In this document: positions 8,836 through 50,517 of the stretch, piece after piece
Layout of the letters: each line of letters opens with the position of its first letter
Position numbering within the stretch: position 1 is the first letter of the stretch
IMG/VR virus record: IMGVR_UViG_3300044737_000122
Span: 1-50,517 of that record
DNA from: a virus
Reading direction: 5' to 3' (one strand)
DNA length: 50,517 nt
The notes under the pieces: generated by a model
What the model was told of the DNA's origin: nothing
Database searches by the model: none
Seen by the model: the letters and a program-made list of their open reading frames with translations, nothing else
Program-made: the position numbers and the translations under genes

Positions 8836-10431
8836 TTAGATGAATAAGAAGTCGGCGGCCTTCCATGACCCGTCCTCATGGACGATCAGTCCCTTTGATC
8901 GAGCCATACTCTTGGCTTTGATGTAGCCGGAGCTGAGTGGTGAGTACTGGCTTTTCTCTGCGAGCGTGATGTCATCGAGACTGGCTGTCTCCAGGAGCGG
9001 GCCTAGCACTCGCTGCTCGGGGCCGGAAAGAACACTCAGAATGAACCGATGTAGCTGCTCTTGCGTGAGCACCTCAGGTGCAGTGTTAGCCCTTGATCGA
9101 CCAGAAGGGGTAAGCTCCAGGCCATCCACGTAACCGGCGGTGCGACACATACTTAGCGCCTTGATGAACCCGGATGATTTGACACTGTATTTTGCACATG
9201 CAGCGACGAGGGGAAGCTCTCTAGGTACATTCGCGTACTCAAGCATCGCGATGGCGTCGATGATGCGCATTTCTGGGCCGGTGATGTTATCAGAGGCGAC
9301 GGGGTTTACCTCAGGCGCAGCGCGCGGCTGCGGAGAAGGCCTCGCCGGCGCGGCGACCTTTTGTGCAATTCGCACTGGTTGCTGGCGAAGTGCTGAAATG
9401 GCGCTGGTGATGGGCGCCAAGGCCTGCTCAAGTCGGGCTAGCTGCCCTTCTTTGAGGACCGGCACTTCAACAGTCTTGATCTTCTCTTGCGGGATTTTCT
9501 GGATCGGGCGGTTTCTGAGTTGTGTCGTAAGGTCTTTTACTTGCTGCTTCAATTCAGCAACGGTCCTAGCCTCTTGCTCGGCTTCTGCGGGAAGGTCCGC
9601 CAGTTCCCCAAGAACGCGCTTGATGGCGCTTGTTGGTGGTACGGTCCGCGTGAGCGCGCGGGAGCCGGCTTTGGGATGCGTGGTGGCGACTGGTCCGATC
9701 GTCACGCGGGTGACTTCGTCAGAGATAGCCGGCCCGAACGCATAGAATTCCCCAGGCTTGAGGGCGCGCAAGGAAAGCATCTGCTCGCGGGACATAAAGC
9801 CAAGCTCATCGCCTGCGCGCTTCATGTCGATGTCCTGTGTGGCTCGGCCGATCAGTTTGTTGTTGCACTCTGCGGCAGCATCCTTGTTGAGCTTCGAGAT
9901 ACGTTGAGTGGCAAGCACAGCACAGTAGCCCCGCTTCCTGCCGAGCGCAGCTAAACCGATCACCGCATCCATCGCCTCGCTCTGTCCTTTCTCGGGCGCG
10001 TAGGTGTGGGCCTCGTCGATCACGACGATGCAGGGGTGCCAAAGCTCCTTAGGTGCGTTAATTAAGGCGTCGAGGAACAGCCGCACGAAACGCTTACGCT
10101 CCTGCGGGTGCAGCTCGTATAGGTCGATGATCGCCGACACCTTAAGCTCCAGCAATTTCCGGGCGAGTAGGGCGGCGCTGCGTGGCTCCGCGGGCGTGTC
10201 GCCGTCTTTGCCGGCGAGTATGAAGTCGTGCTTCTCCCGTAGCGTCGAGAACTCGCCCTCAGAGTCGATAACGATCTGCTGCACCTTGCCGTGAGTCTGC
10301 TCGAGGAGCCGGCGGAGCGCCCAAGATTTGCCGCCGCCGGAGTTGGCCTGGACGAGCAAGCGGCTCTCGATGAGCTTTGACAAGTCGATACTGGTGTTGT
10401 CGTTCAGCTTTATTTTTGTGTCGTCCGCCAT
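8836..10431 (-). CDS. HerA-like DNA translocase ATPase
   Basis: A 531-residue protein with a FtsK/HerA (DUF87-like) ATPase domain: Walker A QANSGGGKSW at residues 28 to 37, Walker B CIVVIDEAH near 133 to 141 and a sensor LATQRISK near 175. Residues ~280 to 395 are a coiled-coil and Pro/Ala linker; the last ~130 residues contain two winged-helix-like repeats (both with SSGFIKA/SSGYIKA), probably binding DNA. Phage HerA-type proteins are thought to act in DNA processing or packaging-like translocation. It follows SSB by exactly TAG-CGT-ATG and has no SD, so translation is probably by reinitiation. Confidence 0.85.
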   Translation of the reverse strand: MADDTKIKLNDNTSIDLSKLIESRLLVQANSGGGKSWALRRLLEQTHGKVQQIVIDSEGEFSTLREKHDFILAGKDGDTPAEPRSAALLARKLLELKVSAIIDLYELHPQERKRFVRLFLDALINAPKELWHPCIVVIDEAHTYAPEKGQSEAMDAVIGLAALGRKRGYCAVLATQRISKLNKDAAAECNNKLIGRATQDIDMKRAGDELGFMSREQMLSLRALKPGEFYAFGPAISDEVTRVTIGPVATTHPKAGSRALTRTVPPTSAIKRVLGELADLPAEAEQEARTVAELKQQVKDLTTQLRNRPIQKIPQEKIKTVEVPVLKEGQLARLEQALAPITSAISALRQQPVRIAQKVAAPARPSPQPRAAPEVNPVASDNITGPEMRIIDAIAMLEYANVPRELPLVAACAKYSVKSSGFIKALSMCRTAGYVDGLELTPSGRSRANTAPEVLTQEQLHRFILSVLSGPEQRVLGPLLETASLDDITLAEKSQYSPLSSGYIKAKSMARSKGLIVHEDGSWKAADFLFI

Positions 10432-10434
10432 ACG

Positions 10435-10911
10435 CTAGAAGGGAATGTCGTCGGGATTGATGTCCTCTTCCGGGTAGGGGATAGGCGCTGCGCTCGCTGT
10501 GGGCTCGCCAGAACCGCGTTCGGACGGGGGGCGCTGGTCTGTATCATCCTCGGGCGCAACGTCCTTTGTAGGCCCGTTTACGGTGCCTGGGCGTGGGCCA
10601 AACTGGACGCGATCGGCGATGATCTCCGTGCGGTATTGCTTGCCCTTCTCCGTGGTTTCCCACGAGCGCGTCTGAATACGCCCTTCGATGTGGGCGATGC
10701 TGCCTTTCTTCAAATATTGGGCGCAGCTCTCGGCCTGCTTACCGTAGACGACGATGTTGTGATACTCGGGCACATCCACCTTCTTGTCGTCTTTTTTAAC
10801 GGTGCGGTTGGTAGCGATGCCGAAGGTTGCCACTGAGCCGCCGCTGGTAAGAGCCTTGAGCTCAGGATCGCGAGTAAGGTTGCCGAGCAAGAGAACTTTG
10901 TTGAGATTCAT
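10435..10911 (-). CDS. ssb: Single-stranded DNA-binding protein
   Basis: A 158-residue SSB with an OB fold in residues 1 to 110 (MNLNKVLLLGNLTRDPELK, FGIATNR, EYHNIVVYGKQAE, GSIAHIEGRIQTRSWE) and a disordered acidic tail ending DINPDDIPF, the usual partner-binding tip. It coats ssDNA during phage replication or recombination and may also protect transferred single strands. It sits between the YopX genes and the HerA-like ATPase in the early operon. Start is 3 nt after the stop of the upstream YopX gene, pointing to coupled translation. Confidence 0.93.
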   Translation of the reverse strand: MNLNKVLLLGNLTRDPELKALTSGGSVATFGIATNRTVKKDDKKVDVPEYHNIVVYGKQAESCAQYLKKGSIAHIEGRIQTRSWETTEKGKQYRTEIIADRVQFGPRPGTVNGPTKDVAPEDDTDQRPPSERGSGEPTASAAPIPYPEEDINPDDIPF

Positions 10912-44593: not shown

Positions 44594-44733
44594 CCTTCTT
44601 GCTCAGGCTTTGGTCTGCGGCTCCACGTCTTTCTTACGGGCGCGCCGCCGAGGATCTTCTCAAGCTCCGCCTCGCTCTCCTTGATGTTCTTCACCAGCTC
44701 GTTGATGCGGTCTACTTTCGCTTGGTCGTACAT
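44581..44733 (-). CDS. Small coiled-coil protein
   Basis: A 50-residue peptide, MYDQAKVDRINELVKNIKES..., with a coiled coil (EAELEKILGG) and basic end. It overlaps the 3' end of the Replic_Relax gene by 74 nt in another frame, and its stop lies within the terminator stem. Similar short coiled peptides end plasmid operons; support is moderate. Confidence 0.4.
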   Translation of the reverse strand: MYDQAKVDRINELVKNIKESEAELEKILGGAPVRKTWSRRPKPEQEGNPA

Positions 44734-45583
44734 TAAGCATCTCCATGAGGTTGAGCGCGCCGTCTGCACCCTGCCACGGCACGAACAGATTTGTTGTCGG
44801 CAGGGGTTTTGGATGAATGGTCGTCGCGTAGAACCGCTTGCTGTACGTGCCCGCAAAGAGGTCGAGCATGCTCTGTATGTCGGGGCGCGTGGTGATGAAC
44901 AGCACGCTCGGGGGCACGCGGAAGCCAAAATGGGTTTCGTAGGTCCTTGAGGAAAAATACTCGCGGTAGCGCTCCACCTTGCTCTTGAGGCTTTGGCGGG
45001 CGTTCTGGCTGATAACGGGCTCGGTGCCGCGGTCTACCTCGATATGGAGGAACAAGGTCTGCTCCCCGTCCGTAAAGCCTCTGGTGATGTCAGGCTCTAG
45101 GGTCGGGCTCATGGAGATGCGGAACGGGTAGGGCGCTTTTCTGGTGCTCTCTGGGCAGCGATCGTCGGCCAGGATGGCATCCGGCCCTTTCACCTGGATG
45201 GGGGCGCGGTCGAGCAAAAACTCAATCTCGCTTCGCAGGAGCCGGTGCTTGTAGTGATCATTGCCGCCCTGGGTGTAGATGTCGCCGTGCTTGGCCAACA
45301 GGGCGCGACCGCGCGGCTTTAGCTCGAAGACGTAAAAGGCGTTGCGGGGGATGTAGGCCAGCTTCTCCTCGCGCGGCAGGTCGGGCAGACCGATGTAGTG
45401 ACCCCTCGCAAGCAGCGTGAGCGCCTTGCGCGTGCCCTGGTACTTTCCGAGCGCGTGATAGATGAAGCTCGACGGCAGGAGGTCGTAGCGGGCCAAGAGC
45501 TTGAGGATATCCAGCTCACGCGCTGAACCGGCCGTGTCGTAGGTCGGCGTGCCGATAGTTTTATACGCTGAGTGTCGCTCCAT
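44660..45583 (-). CDS. Replic_Relax-like protein
   Basis: A 307-residue protein. N-terminal winged-helix region (ELDILKLLARYDLLPSSFIY; GKYQGTRKALTLLARGHYI) is followed by a PD-(D/E)xK-like core: TLEPDITRGF, LFLHIEVDRGTEPV and a Lys in QSLKSKVERYREYF. This is the pattern of the replication-relaxation family of plasmids and conjugative elements, thought to nick or relax DNA. It directly follows the TraD/VirD4-like ATPase gene. The ATG at 45583 is used; a 12-bp palindrome covers it. The C-terminal ~25 residues lose family sense where the frame overlaps the next gene. Confidence 0.65.
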   Translation of the reverse strand: MERHSAYKTIGTPTYDTAGSARELDILKLLARYDLLPSSFIYHALGKYQGTRKALTLLARGHYIGLPDLPREEKLAYIPRNAFYVFELKPRGRALLAKHGDIYTQGGNDHYKHRLLRSEIEFLLDRAPIQVKGPDAILADDRCPESTRKAPYPFRISMSPTLEPDITRGFTDGEQTLFLHIEVDRGTEPVISQNARQSLKSKVERYREYFSSRTYETHFGFRVPPSVLFITTRPDIQSMLDLFAGTYSKRFYATTIHPKPLPTTNLFVPWQGADGALNLMEMLNVRPSESRPHQRAGEEHQGERGGA

Positions 45584-45589
45584 ATGGAG
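45578..45589. promoter_or_regulatory. 12-bp palindrome over the Replic_Relax start
   Basis: CTCCATATGGAG, perfect palindrome, spans the start codon of the Replic_Relax-like gene. Possible autoregulatory operator. Confidence 0.5.
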
Positions 45590-45603
45590 TGTATACGCGC
45601 AGG

Positions 45604-45656
45604 CCCGCAAAAAAGGTACGTGCGGGAAGGGGCGCAGAGTAAGCGCTGTTGCGCTT
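45604..45656. other. Two hairpins between ATPase and Replic_Relax genes
   Basis: CCCGC - 13 nt - GCGGG (45604..45626) and AAGCGC - TGTT - GCGCTT (45641..45656). They lie in the 86-nt gap between two co-directional genes and are not followed by a U-run. A structured leader or nick-site element is possible. Confidence 0.5.
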
Positions 45657-45669
45657 CCACTAAACTATA

Positions 45670-47715
45670 TCACCGATTTTTTTCAGTTAAGGGTAGATCG
45701 TCGTTCTCAACCGTGCGGGAAGCAGGCTTGTAGGGATGGACAAACGCGAGCCGCTCGCGCATCACAGCGTAGTCATCTCGTTCCATTTGCGGCTCGTGGT
45801 CGAATTCAAGTTTTTTCACCGGCAGGTCGAACTCTTTTTTTCGGGTCGTTATATGCACAGACCCTACATCGTGGCAGCGCGACTTGATGCCAGCTTGCTC
45901 GAGTGCCGCGACCACGCCGGGGATAAAACCGCCCGATTGCTTGAGATGGTGGTGCGCTATGGTCATGCCGATCTTGGATGAGCGGGCCTTCTCCAAGATG
46001 TCGGCAAATATCTCGTCGCGTGCGATGTAGTCCTGGGCCTCGTCTATCACTACAAACACAGGCGGGCCGGGATGGTCCGTGCGTTCGCTGGCGAGTTGGT
46101 CTATGAGCGCAATGACGAGACGGCCTAGGAGCGCGCCGGCTTCTTTGCCAAACGCGCGTCGGCTCGTGTCCACGAGAAGCACCTTTCCGCCGCGCTGTAT
46201 CTCGCGCATGTCCAGCGCGAAGCTGTCGGCATTGAGCATTTTCAGGAACGGCCCGTCGCGGAACTCCGCCAAAAAATCCATCAATCTCTGCTCGATGCCG
46301 CCGCTGGTAAGCGCCGCCACGCCCCTGCGGGTGTGCAAAAACCACTTGCGGGTTACGTCGTCCAGGCGGTCAGGATTGAGACCCGCCGGAAGCTTGTCTT
46401 TGGGCGTTAGCATCAACTCCGAGAGACTGTAGAGCGTAGGGTTAGTCATGCTGTAGGCGGCGTTCACGTAATGGCGCAGAACGCCCATTTGCAATTTGCT
46501 CGCCTCAGTCAGTCCGGCAAGCATGTACACAAGCAGCGGCACGCCTTGCGCTTTGGGCAGCTTGAACGGGTTGAGCGGAAAAATTGCATCGGCATCAATG
46601 AGGATGAGGTGGCCGTCTAGAGGTTGACCTGCGGCAAAATCCTTGAGCGTGCGCATCTCGCGGACCAGACGTTTGCTGTCTACCACGAAAAGCGAGCATT
46701 CCTCCCGAGCTACGCGGGCGAGGTCATCCTTGATGAAGTGCCTCAAAAATGTAGTTTTGCCCGAGCCGTTATCGCCCATGCACCAATGATGGGTAAAGCG
46801 CATCTCGTCGGTAAAAGGCTGGAAGGGGATGGCGATGTTAAACAGCTCTCGGAACGCTGGGATCAGATAGAGCTCCAAAACGTCCTCGCCTTTATACTGC
46901 ACGGGCCAAACTCCCGTCACGGCGTATCCGGCGCCGTATTTTTCGCGGACCGTCTTGCATAAGCCGCGTGCTTTCAGTTCTGGCGTGCAGAACGGCGCGA
47001 GCACATCAACGATAGTTTGGCCAACAGGGATAAGCTGCGAGGCCGGTACCTTCCATGGCGTCGGCTGCTCACTAGGCCGCGGTAGATGGCGGAGAAACGC
47101 GAGGATGCTCTGCGTAAGCGCCTTGGTAATGAGGTCGTAGTCGAAGAGCTGTGAAGCCAACGCAAGGGGCCGTAGGTACTCAATATCCATATCAATATTG
47201 AAACCGAGCGGGATGGGCTTGTCGGGCTCGTAGGGTTGGAGCGGTTCAGCCGGCCTGAAGTCCGGTTCCGTATCTAAGTAAAAGAACAGCGCACGAAAAC
47301 GATGGAGGGTCTCCGGGTCAAAGACGAAGCCTTCCCGTAGAATCGCGAGCTCAATATCAGGTCGCCAGTCGGCAAAGACTTCCTCCGGCATTGGCAAAGG
47401 GCGGGCCGCTATATCGTACAGACGCTTGTATTCGTCATATGTCTCTCGCGTCTGTCGGTAGATGTCGGCGATGTATGCAGCGCGCTCGTCTGCCGTTTCT
47501 TTGGCCTTCGTGTGATGAATGTAGAATGCGTATGCTATTAAACCGGCGCCTACCAATATGCCTGATACAAGCACGATCCGCATGAGGGAGCCGAAAAACA
47601 CCTCAATAGAAGCGATGTTTTTGTCGACTGCCATTGAGGCGATAGGGATCAGGATGCAGATCACCACCGCCCAGCCGAGCAGCTTCTCGCTCGCTGGTAA
47701 ATTCCCGTCGGCCAC
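45670..47715 (-). CDS. Membrane-anchored TraD/VirD4-like ATPase
   Basis: A 681-residue protein. Two N-terminal transmembrane helices (about residues 12 to 30 and 44 to 65) are followed by a long linker and a FtsK/VirD4 type ATPase: Walker A MGDNGSGKTTF near 312 to 322, Walker B VFVVIDEAQDY near 552 to 562, and ARSSKIGMTIAHHHLKQSGG as arginine/sensor region. Such proteins couple DNA to a conjugation channel or pump it across the envelope. No VirB-type channel genes are seen. It lies 23 nt after a P-loop-less ATPase-like gene, and before Replic_Relax. Packaging-motor assistance is an alternative. Confidence 0.75.
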   Translation of the reverse strand: MADGNLPASEKLLGWAVVICILIPIASMAVDKNIASIEVFFGSLMRIVLVSGILVGAGLIAYAFYIHHTKAKETADERAAYIADIYRQTRETYDEYKRLYDIAARPLPMPEEVFADWRPDIELAILREGFVFDPETLHRFRALFFYLDTEPDFRPAEPLQPYEPDKPIPLGFNIDMDIEYLRPLALASQLFDYDLITKALTQSILAFLRHLPRPSEQPTPWKVPASQLIPVGQTIVDVLAPFCTPELKARGLCKTVREKYGAGYAVTGVWPVQYKGEDVLELYLIPAFRELFNIAIPFQPFTDEMRFTHHWCMGDNGSGKTTFLRHFIKDDLARVAREECSLFVVDSKRLVREMRTLKDFAAGQPLDGHLILIDADAIFPLNPFKLPKAQGVPLLVYMLAGLTEASKLQMGVLRHYVNAAYSMTNPTLYSLSELMLTPKDKLPAGLNPDRLDDVTRKWFLHTRRGVAALTSGGIEQRLMDFLAEFRDGPFLKMLNADSFALDMREIQRGGKVLLVDTSRRAFGKEAGALLGRLVIALIDQLASERTDHPGPPVFVVIDEAQDYIARDEIFADILEKARSSKIGMTIAHHHLKQSGGFIPGVVAALEQAGIKSRCHDVGSVHITTRKKEFDLPVKKLEFDHEPQMERDDYAVMRERLAFVHPYKPASRTVENDDLPLTEKNR

Positions 47716-47738: not shown

Positions 47739-48509
47739 CTAGCTGGCCATCCTGTCCTGGACAAATTCCGTGTGGCCGATCACGCCGGGAACCAGGCCGG
47801 CGTACTGCGCTAGGACCAGCGCATCCTCATGGGAGCATCCCGCGCCCTCCTTGTGCTCAATCTGCAAGACGGCCTGCCTAAGCCGGGGCGGGAGCTCGGC
47901 CAAAAAGTTAACGGCGACGGCGAGGCGGCTCTGGCGGATGAAGAGCGTGTGTAAAGGACACAGATAAAAGCCACCGTCAGAGACAACGATTTGTCCTTTA
48001 TGCTGCTGCATCAAAAACAGAGCCAGCGCGAGCGCCTGCTTGTCTCCCAACTGGGCACGGTCAATCCGCGCTACCACCGTGCCGTCGAAATCGAATTGCC
48101 TACCACTACAGAAGATGTCCTTGAGCGTCGGAAAAAAGAGCAGGGCGTCCACTGCCGCCAACGCTTCGGCTTGAGCGGGGTCTTTGGGGTTGCCTGTGAG
48201 CTTGTCCAAGCGTGTAGTGGTAACGAGCATGCGGGCGAGGGCGCGTTTGCCGTTACGCACGGTAAGGGTGCTCTCTCCGCCCGGATCGGCAGCGTAGATG
48301 ATGTCAGCGACGGCCACGGCGCGCTCGGGCGTGATCCCGATAAGGGGATTGAAGTGGTGCTTGTGCGGGTCGAACACGCGAACCCGCTTCGTAAGAAAAA
48401 TGTCCGGCGTGTCGCCGATGTAGAGAAAAGGTGGAGCCGCGTGGTCGCGGAGCCAGTCGGTAGTGTCGGCGATGCCGAGGTGTAATGAGTTCATGCGGTC
48501 AGCGGCCAT
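47739..48509 (-). CDS. ATPase-like protein without P-loop
   Basis: A 256-residue protein. Segments VRVFDPHKHHFNPLIGITPE, VVARIDRAQLGDKQALALAL and HTLFIRQSRLAVAVNFLAEL follow the order of strands in VirD4/HerA type ATPases, and the end (LPPRLRQAVLQIEHKEGAGC) looks like the C-terminal region of the following ATPase, but no GxxxxGK(T/S) is present. It may be a structural partner of the TraD-like protein, or a decayed copy. ATG 48509 (MAADRM) or 48494; frame open further upstream. TATAAT at 48583 gives a possible promoter. Confidence 0.55.
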   Translation of the reverse strand: MAADRMNSLHLGIADTTDWLRDHAAPPFLYIGDTPDIFLTKRVRVFDPHKHHFNPLIGITPERAVAVADIIYAADPGGESTLTVRNGKRALARMLVTTTRLDKLTGNPKDPAQAEALAAVDALLFFPTLKDIFCSGRQFDFDGTVVARIDRAQLGDKQALALALFLMQQHKGQIVVSDGGFYLCPLHTLFIRQSRLAVAVNFLAELPPRLRQAVLQIEHKEGAGCSHEDALVLAQYAGLVPGVIGHTEFVQDRMAS

Positions 48510-48582
48510 GTGCCACGTCGGGCCTCGCGCTTCCAAGGGTTGGCGTGGGGACCGTGACCGCAAATAAGATCGGTCCGCTGTA

Positions 48583-48588
48583 ATTATA
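48583..48588 (-). promoter_or_regulatory. Consensus -10 TATAAT before the ATPase-like gene
   Basis: TATAAT on the minus strand (in CGATATAATTACAGC), about 74 nt before ATG 48509. No good -35 at 17 nt; TTGCGC lies 21 nt upstream. Confidence 0.45.
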
Positions 48589-48720
48589 TCGTGGAATAGT
48601 CGCGCTCGAGCGCAACAGGCCGCCGTACTGGGCAGTAGTGGCGGCGTTGCTGTTCGTTGACGGCTGCGAAACAGCCAATATGTCGGACGGTGTACCGCTG
48701 GTCTGATTGTAGCATGCCGA

Positions 48721-48755
48721 CGCACAAGCCGCCGCGTGATGCGGCGGCTTGTGCG
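48721..48755. repeat. Perfect 15-bp hairpin
   Basis: CGCACAAGCCGCCGC - GTGAT - GCGGCGGCTTGTGCG. Strongest stem in the window. A-rich sequence follows on the + strand, so no terminator U-run exists on either strand. Confidence 0.85.
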
Positions 48756-48797
48756 AAAAAGAAAGGCCACGAGCTCTCGATACTCACGACCACGGCA

Positions 48798-48810
48798 ATT
48801 GTAACACAAT
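48798..48810. promoter_or_regulatory. 13-bp operator-like palindrome
   Basis: ATTGT-AAC-ACAAT, a perfect 5-bp dyad inside the structured block; plausible repressor or excisionase site. Confidence 0.4.
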
Positions 48811-48830
48811 GGCTGTAGTGGGTAATTGTG

Positions 48831-48980
48831 CCCGCCAACTGTCCGTCGTGAGCGTAAGCGACGACCCAATACGCTGAGGCCAAGCAAAATTTTTTGCGCC
48901 GTGCCCTTAAGCCCGCGTGTCTATTAGACCAAGGGTCAGGGTATTGGGTCGTGGCTGAGCCACGCGGACAGTTGTGCGGG
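48831..48980. repeat. 150-bp imperfect inverted repeat with nested hairpins
   Basis: Arm 1 is 48831..48872 and arm 2 is 48941..48980. Outer blocks CCCGC-CAACTGTCCG pair with CGGACAGTTG-TGCGGG (one extra base), inner blocks CGACCCAATAC pair with GTATTGGGTCG (48862..48872, 48941..48951). Between outer and inner blocks each arm has its own hairpin: CGTCG...CGACG in arm 1 and CGTGGCT-G-AGCCACG in arm 2. The 68-nt centre contains GCAAAA-TT-TTTTGC. Confidence 0.85.
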
Positions 48981-49055
48981 AAATGTAAGCCCTGTCGCGT
49001 TTTATCGCGCAGGTATTAATCGCAACGTAGATGAGAGAGCGGATGCGACACTATA

Positions 49056-49084
49056 AACCCCGGTCTCCGTGAGGAGCCGGGGTT
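49056..49084 (-). terminator. Hairpin downstream of the excisionase-like gene
   Basis: AACCCCGG - 13 nt including CTCC/GGAG - CCGGGGTT. Positioned 35 nt after the stop of the leftward gene at 49119; the U-run is weak, so termination is probable rather than certain. Confidence 0.6.
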
Positions 49085-49118
49085 CTAGTAACGGCCCACC
49101 TGGTTAGGGGGTGAGGCG

Positions 49119-49295
49119 TTAGCGGGTGGAGATAAGTCTCTCGACTTGCTCTCGCTTGTAGTAGACGCGGGACGCTCGGCCGTTTGGTTTGATAGGCGTG
49201 AGCAGTTCCGCTTTCTCCCATCGCTGGAAGGTAGTGTTGGTAACTTCGACTCCTAGCTTCCGAACATCATTTCGGGTCATCAGTTCTTTCGACAT
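49119..49295 (-). CDS. Excisionase / MerR-type DNA-binding protein
   Basis: A 58-residue helix-turn-helix protein: MSKELMTRNDVRKLGVEVTN, TTFQRWEKAELLTPIKPNGR, then a wing ASRVYYKREQVERLIS. The layout is of winged excisionases (Xis/AlpA/MerR-like) which bend DNA beside integrase genes. ATG 49295 is chosen because GGAG lies 8 nt upstream; 49301 is possible. It is 100 nt downstream of the integrase and just upstream of the structured block, where its binding sites might lie. Confidence 0.75.
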   Translation of the reverse strand: MSKELMTRNDVRKLGVEVTNTTFQRWEKAELLTPIKPNGRASRVYYKREQVERLISTR

Positions 49296-49395
49296 CGGCA
49301 TGGCTCCATGAGTTGGAGGCAGGCCGTGTCGCAAGTTCTAGCGACGAGTGGAGGTTAGCGATGTGGTGGCGTCAGTCAATGCCACAAAGCGCACT

Positions 49396-50517
49396 CTAGG
49401 CGGCTTCCCTGAGAGCCGGCGCAACGAGCGACTGTAGGAACATCTCCCAATTCTCCATCGCCTCGCGCATTTCGGGCTGATAGGTCCACATATCGTATAC
49501 CTCCTCCATTTCGGTTCGGGAGGAAATGTGGTTGACCAAGCGCTCGGCAATGTCCGGACGGACCTTTAGGCGCCCGAGGTTGGTGCGGAACGTGCGGCGC
49601 AAGTCGTGCAGGGTCCAGGGCGCAATGCGGGCGATCTTGTCGAGCGCCTTTTTGCACTTGCTCCACCCGCTAAACGGTAACTCCGAGCCTACGGCTTGGA
49701 ACAGTAGCTCGCTGGGACGGTCCTGCCGTATCCGCCGGGCGAGTATTTCCCGCGCCATCGGTCCCACGGGGAACGTGTGTTCCAAGTGATTCTTGGTGAG
49801 TTCCCCCGGTAGGGTGACGCACTGTTGATTGTCCGAATAGTAGCGGTCGGCGAGGGCGGCGGTCTCGCCGCGCCGCTGCCCCATCAAGATCAGCAACCGG
49901 ACGATCTCGGGGAAGTCGCCCTCCATCTCAAACGTCGCCAGCCAGACCTTGCGCAGTTCCTCGTCGGTCAGGACGCGCTTGCGGCGCTTTGGTTTGGCAA
50001 GCTGGATACCCTCGAGCGGGTTGACCGCGATGTACTGCCGGCGTTTTGCCCACCGGAAAAAGGTCCGGGACACGGCCTGCGCGTGGTGAAGTTCGCTCGG
50101 CGTGCCGACCAACTCGTCAGTGATAGCGGTGAGCATATGGGTGGTGATGCCGCTCATCCGCTTGTTTGCAAGCACGGGCAGGTAATGCCGCTCCAAAATG
50201 TTTTTGTAGCCCCGCTGGGTGCTAGGCTTCTTGGTGGCGATATGGGTCTTCTTAAACGCCGTATACGCCTCCTCAAACGACACCCGGCCGCTGGACGGCT
50301 GTGGGGTCGCAAGCAGGCGTTTCGCCTCTGTACGTGCATCCTGGAGCGTCACAGCGGGATAGTGGCCGATGCTTATGAGCTGGCGATCGGCGCCCCGCAT
50401 GACGATCCAAGTGCGACGGTTCTTGCCAACTCGGATGCCGAACGCAGGCGTCGTCCGGTCAAAGTATTTGCCGGGCGCCAGTGAACGGACGGTGAGATCG
50501 GTGAGCTTCGTCTGCAA
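49396..50517 (-). CDS. int: Tyrosine integrase (partial at window end)
   Basis: At least 373 residues; the frame reaches the window edge, starting there with TTG, so the true start is probably a few codons beyond. N-terminal DUF4102-type region (TDLTVRSLAPGKYFDRTTPA; IGHYPAVTLQDARTEAK), core-binding helices (~80 to 165) and a catalytic domain with R215 (GQRRGE), K242, H304/R307 (LHDLRRTF), H330 and Y341 (EVYDMWTY). It catalyses site-specific integration and excision with the neighbouring Xis-like protein. The spacing of H330 and Y341 is normal. Its usual target is a tRNA 3' end; no attR is in the window. Confidence 0.9.
   Translation of the reverse strand: MQTKLTDLTVRSLAPGKYFDRTTPAFGIRVGKNRRTWIVMRGADRQLISIGHYPAVTLQDARTEAKRLLATPQPSSGRVSFEEAYTAFKKTHIATKKPSTQRGYKNILERHYLPVLANKRMSGITTHMLTAITDELVGTPSELHHAQAVSRTFFRWAKRRQYIAVNPLEGIQLAKPKRRKRVLTDEELRKVWLATFEMEGDFPEIVRLLILMGQRRGETAALADRYYSDNQQCVTLPGELTKNHLEHTFPVGPMAREILARRIRQDRPSELLFQAVGSELPFSGWSKCKKALDKIARIAPWTLHDLRRTFRTNLGRLKVRPDIAERLVNHISSRTEMEEVYDMWTYQPEMREAMENWEMFLQSLVAPALREAA

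Follow-up and report, generated by a model that had tools for sequence, protein, structure and literature searches.

PF13814 describes the MobC relaxase superfamily, and integrative and mobilizable elements (IMEs) pair MobC with VirD4, an excisionase (xis) and an integrase (int); in class 8 of these elements the genes form a compact set with a serine integrase (PMC5357655). MOB_C relaxases are PD-(D/E)XK-like, and TraX of pAD1 has a winged helix-turn-helix; its binding site is a set of five direct repeats lying 70-120 bp from nic (PMC12857230). The nearest known counterparts of the locus described here include pAM373 and pAD1 (oriT2) of Enterococcus, whose MOB_C relaxases belong to the TraX family, and CloDF13 (MobB/MobC, MOB_C), a small bacteriocin plasmid.

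The window, by which we mean the whole stretch of DNA analysed, is a 50,517-bp viral contig that encodes terminase, portal, major head and tail proteins. Like the class 8 IMEs it carries a compact set of VirD4, MobC relaxase, xis and integrase, but its integrase is a tyrosine recombinase and it is a tailed prophage with structural genes. The inverted repeat at 48831-48980, together with its right flank to about 49048, is very probably where the phage's own MOB_C relaxase binds and nicks in cis, a site built like the origin of transfer (oriT) of a MOB_C plasmid.

Gene neighbourhood and relaxase homologue

The minus-strand gene order is integrase, xis, terminator-like stem, the site, orf250, VirD4/FtsK-like ATPase, Replic_Relax, CHC2 primase-like gene, methyltransferase and ArdC. 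The integrase gene begins exactly at the window end, as would be expected of a trimmed prophage. The features flanking the site are as follows.

49396-50517, minus strand: tyrosine integrase
49119-49334, minus strand: excisionase-like (MerR/HTH) gene, upstream of the site
49057-49083, minus strand: terminator-like stem closing the int-xis transcript; a stem stands at the same place in the relatives L004, L005 and L006
48492-48588, minus strand: -10 box (TATAAT) and structured 5' leader RNA of orf250, a separate element, present in 17/17 phages
47739-48494, minus strand: orf250, conserved partner protein with a T4CP-like fold (TrwB/VirB4/Cag-beta) in its predicted structure
45670-47715, minus strand: VirD4/FtsK-like ATPase, candidate coupling protein, matching plasmid proteins named 'type IV secretory system conjugative DNA transfer'
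44660-45610, minus strand: MOB_C-type relaxase homologue (PF13814, Replic_Relax), predicted to have an N-terminal winged helix and a C-terminal PD-(D/E)XK-like fold

A relaxase gene and a VirD4-like coupling gene are thus carried on the same element as the candidate oriT. The relaxase homologue scored 32.3 bits against PF13814 (curated cut-off, 25.3), and six relatives also exceeded the cut-off. Its AF2 model (pLDDT 74) has an N-terminal, MarR-like wHTH (probability about 1); nuclease matches by Foldseek were modest (FokI/MunI, E 0.003-0.02; E 2.9e-3) and support that part of the fold with moderate confidence only. D174 and E191 were invariant in an alignment that included the pAM373 relaxase, and E191 was kept at 90% or more in a wider phage alignment. 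Direct profile comparison (hhalign) of the phage relaxases with the pAM373 relaxase gave no significant similarity; the link between them runs through the PF13814 model and the predicted fold.

The orf250 model (pLDDT 88) matched the structures of VirB4, TrwB and Cag-beta. No Walker A motif and no convincing Pfam match were seen in orf250 (window 47739-48494; L005:2172-2933), and the modelled protein possibly works with the VirD4-like ATPase as a pseudo-ATPase partner. An SSB gene lies at 10435-10911; near it and an AAA_24 protein, a second ATPase, DUF87/HerA-Zot-like, is encoded on the minus strand at 8836-10431. The mating-pore VirB4 gene (PF03135) was absent from 17/17 records, so that transfer would need a helper conjugation system.

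A nested inverted repeat

The initial annotation had described a 150-bp imperfect inverted repeat in which each arm carries its own small hairpin of different sequence. Both points were borne out at 48831-48980, where the arms matched each other with E = 2.8e-6 in a self search of the record. The repeat consists of an outer stem (CCCGCCAACTGTCCG / CGGACAGTTGtGCGGG), two opposed side hairpins that differ in sequence between the arms (left TCGTGAGCGTAAGCGACGA, right TGGCTGAGCCACG), an inner stem (CGACCCAATAC.CTGA / TCAG.GTATTGGGTCG) and a variable tip, and takes a cloverleaf shape when drawn single-stranded. Its parts, all given on the plus strand, are listed here.

48831-48845, plus strand: left arm of the outer stem of the oriT candidate, pairing with 48965-48980, which has one extra T; 16 relatives have an equivalent
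48846-48861, plus strand: left junction segment, bearing a small hairpin of its own; relatives, CloDF13 and Methylomagnum have a hairpin at this place too, unrelated in sequence
48862-48877, plus strand: left arm of the inner stem, which changes on both sides among the relatives and stays paired in every one; its CGACC is complementary to the proposed nick core
48878-48935, plus strand: variable distal (apical) region, 58 nt in the window and 58-250 nt in the relatives measured
48936-48951, plus strand: right arm of the inner stem, aligned with the relatives; its terminal GGTCG is the proposed nick region, with the cut at TTGG/GTCG if CloDF13 is a guide
48952-48964, plus strand: right side hairpin, which reads GGCGTGAGCC in L005, L025 and CloDF13
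48965-48980, plus strand: right arm of the outer stem with a conserved extra T (unpaired in 13/16), then a conserved GCGGAA flank
48996-49048, plus strand: right flank, with a small hairpin (48996-49009) and then a weak 12-bp repeat of two units (49025-49048), in the position taken by 12-13-bp direct repeats in relatives

The 609-nt region that contains the site folded 9 SD better than dinucleotide shuffles (z about -9), and local 150-nt windows gave z of about -3.5 to -4.7 on both strands. A nested-stem finder recovered 22 paired bases in the window. As ten shuffled windows reached up to 20, the window sequence taken by itself is suggestive of a nested repeat and does not prove it; the proof comes from conservation in relatives.

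Three other readings of the repeat were tried and rejected. An attC (integron) site was suggested by AAC/GTT and the extra T, but AAC is not kept (for example in L004) and attC sites are without twin side hairpins. A transposon or REP element does not fit a single copy in the record, and the centre is not palindromic as a protelomerase site would be.

Further structures lie nearby. The perfect 15-bp hairpin and the terminator-like stem reported initially were located at 48721-48755, between the element and the orf250 leader, and at 49057-49083, respectively. For a 13-bp palindrome reported with them, the nearest candidates (GCGCTCGAGCGC near 48602 and CAAAATTTTTTG at 48885) were only approximate. 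In the window no T-run follows the stem of the 48721-48755 hairpin; L004, L005 and L014 have GC-rich hairpins at this position, that of L014 followed by TTTT, and the hairpin is perhaps a degenerate terminator.

Conservation in related phages

Relatives were gathered by an ATPase search, which gave two viral contigs, and then by a growing orf250 alignment, which brought the total to 16. The orf250 alignment found no relatives in genome_contigs, DNA similarity searches of phage and plasmid collections gave no match, and neither did exact pattern scans with the window's own arms. The element was present in 17/17 phages of the orf250 family (the window and 16 relatives). It lies upstream of orf250 in the window, L004, L005, L006, L011, L014, L016, L022, L025 and L026, and elsewhere in L009, L010, L018, L019, L020, L023 and L027. 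The members of this second group that were checked have the int-ATPase-relaxase-primase block at one end of the prophage and, near the opposite end, the element with orf250.

This arrangement bears on attP, the recombination site of the integrase, which had been an initial guess along with oriT. The element does adjoin xis and int in the window. Integration would leave an attP divided, one half at each prophage end, yet in integrated prophages the element is intact; in seven relatives, moreover, it is near the opposite prophage end from int. Because the second-group prophages place the element and orf250 opposite the int block, the element is not tied to one gene neighbour, and attP was discarded as extremely unlikely. 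The same seven relatives count against the oriT reading as well, since in them the element is at the opposite prophage end from the relaxase gene.

A scan of 2.9 million viral contigs with the inner stem only (CGACCCAAT...ATTGGGTCGNGG) gave six matches. Two were already known, two were new and had the full element with the gene module, and two were without the structure and look like chance matches. One new contig (L047) contains int, orf250 and part of the ATPase gene; the other (L049) contains int and the whole orf250-ATPase-relaxase-primase operon.

The stem letters vary between phages and the pairing stays. When the relatives were tested for loss of pairing or for changes without compensation, the stems were found to keep their pairing. 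At inner-stem positions 5-12, 91% of pairs were Watson-Crick, compared with 36% when arms were shuffled among phages, the former figure being an underestimate because the row of L005 was shifted by one base. None of the 501 predicted core pairs (outer and inner stems) was a G.T pair, and direct alignment of the arms gave the same result; the stems had been chosen by eye as well-paired segments, a choice that favours high pairing but not obviously a total absence of G.T. In the rest of the element G.T made up 10.9% of predicted pairs, against 9.6% of predicted pairs in the orf250 leader RNA, which served as a control.

These figures address a further suggestion, that the repeat is the gene of a structured non-coding RNA. 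Strong folding and pairing kept through two-sided changes would suit such a gene. The core stems, however, lack the G.T/G.U pairs that the adjacent leader RNA shows, a search of Rfam gave no match (chance-level matches only at a relaxed threshold), and the same element adjoins transfer genes in MOB_C plasmids. As the stems vary yet stay paired with no G.T in 501 pairs, the 48831-48980 repeat fits a DNA site and not an RNA, and we consider an RNA gene very improbable.

The suggestion of a structured RNA, which failed for the 150-bp repeat, did hold nearby for the 5' leader of orf250 (48492-48588, minus strand). A TATAAT box at 48578-48588 on the minus strand is followed by a leader of about 90 nt that reaches as far as the orf250 start codon. 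This leader has an inner hairpin and a long stem whose end lies beside the ATG, and its share of G.U pairs is RNA-like. The leader had no Rfam family match and is probably a cis-regulatory RNA acting in translation control or antitermination.

Within the core, GGTCG or AGTCG stands in the right arm of the inner stem in 15/17 phages, the remaining two having GGTCA or GCTCG. Direct repeats of 12-13 bp were detected at the family level in the right flank and on that side only; lags 12 (z 6.5) and 13 (z 6.2) were the only ones that clearly stood out. The window's own direct repeats are weak (12/26 matches at lag 12). By analogy, the right-flank repeats of the relatives are like the relaxase-binding repeats of MOB_C oriTs.

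Variation among the elements took several forms. The outer stem and side hairpins are nearly identical between L019:8261-8527 and L023:7540-7817 and the inner stem is completely different; the distal stem-loop seems to have been swapped as a cassette. One inner-stem type is common to L011 and L027, which are otherwise distant. L016:4099-4292 contains another nested inverted repeat, with stems of 8 and 13 bp and about 60 bp away from the first; it is possibly a second site. Putative HNH-type ORFs, recognised by eye, are inserted beside the leader RNA and the oriT-like element in L009:4507-5001 and L006:4283-4681; that of L006 had no Pfam match, and both are possible homing endonucleases.

Comparison with MOB_C plasmids and proposed function

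The same nested repeat was found in six MOB_C-type plasmids, namely pAM373, CloDF13, three more plasmids from enterococci and one from Methylomagnum; in most of them it is adjoined by direct repeats. In pAM373 (typed MOBC) the nested repeat lies between the VirD4-like and Replic_Relax genes; its outer stem measures 18 bp and its inner stem 25 bp, with a side hairpin on the right and about five repeats of 12 bp. Plasmids of E. mundtii and E. hirae have it, with other sequences, also between VirD4-like and Replic_Relax genes, and a further E. faecalis plasmid, with another sequence again, beside its Replic_Relax gene. The pAM373 site, together with oriT2 of pAD1, resembles the phage element in its right-arm side hairpin, in GACC/GGTC in the inner stem and in one-sided direct repeats of about 12 bp. 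It differs in that pAM373 is a plasmid with conjugation genes, its left side hairpin is not evident, its inner stem is longer and its relaxase is too distant for direct detection.

CloDF13 has a cloverleaf at 9650-9783 with both side hairpins. Its right arm (GGTCG-GGCGTGAGCCTGACG, compared with GGTCGTGGCGTGAGCCCGACG in L005 and L025) carries a right hairpin nearly identical to that of these phages (GGTCG-GGCGTGAGCC). We take the CloDF13 nic to be GGGTG/GTCGGG; the string GGGTGGTCGGG occurs once in the CloDF13 record. Unlike the phage element, no 12-bp repeats were noted in this plasmid, and the MobC gene was not recovered from its record. Plasmid pRS11DPr5 of Methylomagnum ishizawai has the full cloverleaf nested repeat beside its PF13814 gene (4058-4158 of L039); it is a plasmid, with no phage structural genes annotated. 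A Methylomagnum plasmid record with a Replic_Relax gene (L038, 5000-9000) also contains ThiF-family, multiubiquitin and DUF6527 genes, a ubiquitin-like system. No such nested repeat was found in the Sulfitobacter plasmid with the nearest relaxase, and the Geobacillus TP-84 and Sulfitobacter regions had no comparable one near the module.

It could also be that a regulator or recombinase binds the two arms as inverted sites, as in a looping operator or an invertible switch, and that the element is no oriT. The element is upstream of the operon promoter in the window and most relatives of the first group (those with the element upstream of orf250), and some inner-stem sequences are common to distant phages. 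Such sites leave unexplained why each arm has a side hairpin of unrelated sequence, why the 12-bp repeats stand on one side only and why MOB_C plasmids have the same layout, and we regard this possibility as very improbable. Judged on sequence and predicted pairing, the best match of the nested repeat is the oriT of MOB_C plasmids. Because these plasmids show the same nested repeat, we settled on the oriT reading; the initial guess of an oriT is strongly supported by this match and by the MOB_C relaxase and T4CP-like genes in the same operon.

In a mostly conjectural working model, Xis and Int would first excise the prophage. The winged-helix domain of the relaxase may then dock on the right-flank repeats, and the two arms of an unwound or supercoiled site may fold into the cloverleaf. 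The PD-(D/E)XK domain would nick one strand at the base of the inner stem, within its conserved GGTCG. By analogy with the CloDF13 nic, this would be the plus strand of the window, at TTGG/GTCG around 48945-48951, and with the nick so placed the xis-int side would leave first and the transfer genes last. The VirD4-like ATPase, with orf250 as its T4CP-fold partner, would pump or couple the freed strand, and ArdC and SSB would protect the DNA. Since no mating-pore gene was found, we propose that the phage may be mobilised by a helper conjugation system, that the nick may start its own rolling-circle replication, or both.

The same DNA site and relaxase might also have phage replication as their sole job, as a plasmid-derived rolling-circle start (plus and/or minus origin) with no conjugal transfer. 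The CHC2 primase-like protein of the operon, the SSB and the lack of a mating-pore VirB4 in the 17 records are in keeping with this, and relaxases, which are multifunctional, are related to replication initiators (PMC5714925). DNA transfer, however, is the typical setting of VirD4/TrwB-like proteins and ArdC, and the compact VirD4-MobC-xis-int layout is that of mobilizable elements (PMC5357655). We consider a role in replication only rather less probable than not.

With the site read as a MOB_C oriT, a widespread temperate tailed phage family would carry a complete MOB_C DNA-processing set (relaxase, coupling ATPase and oriT). That the element spreads both in capsids and by hitchhiking on conjugation is a proposal whose chances we put only slightly short of even. 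The locus ties this phage family to MOB_C mobilisation machinery, making dual-route transfer (capsid and conjugation) or relaxase-started replication possible. The comparison also yields a definition of the MOB_C oriT that apparently had not been set out in the literature consulted: a cloverleaf (outer stem, two side hairpins and an inner stem with a GGTC core) accompanied on one side by repeats of about 12 bp. This definition applies to Enterococcus plasmids, CloDF13 and the phages alike, and could find oriTs missed by similarity searches.
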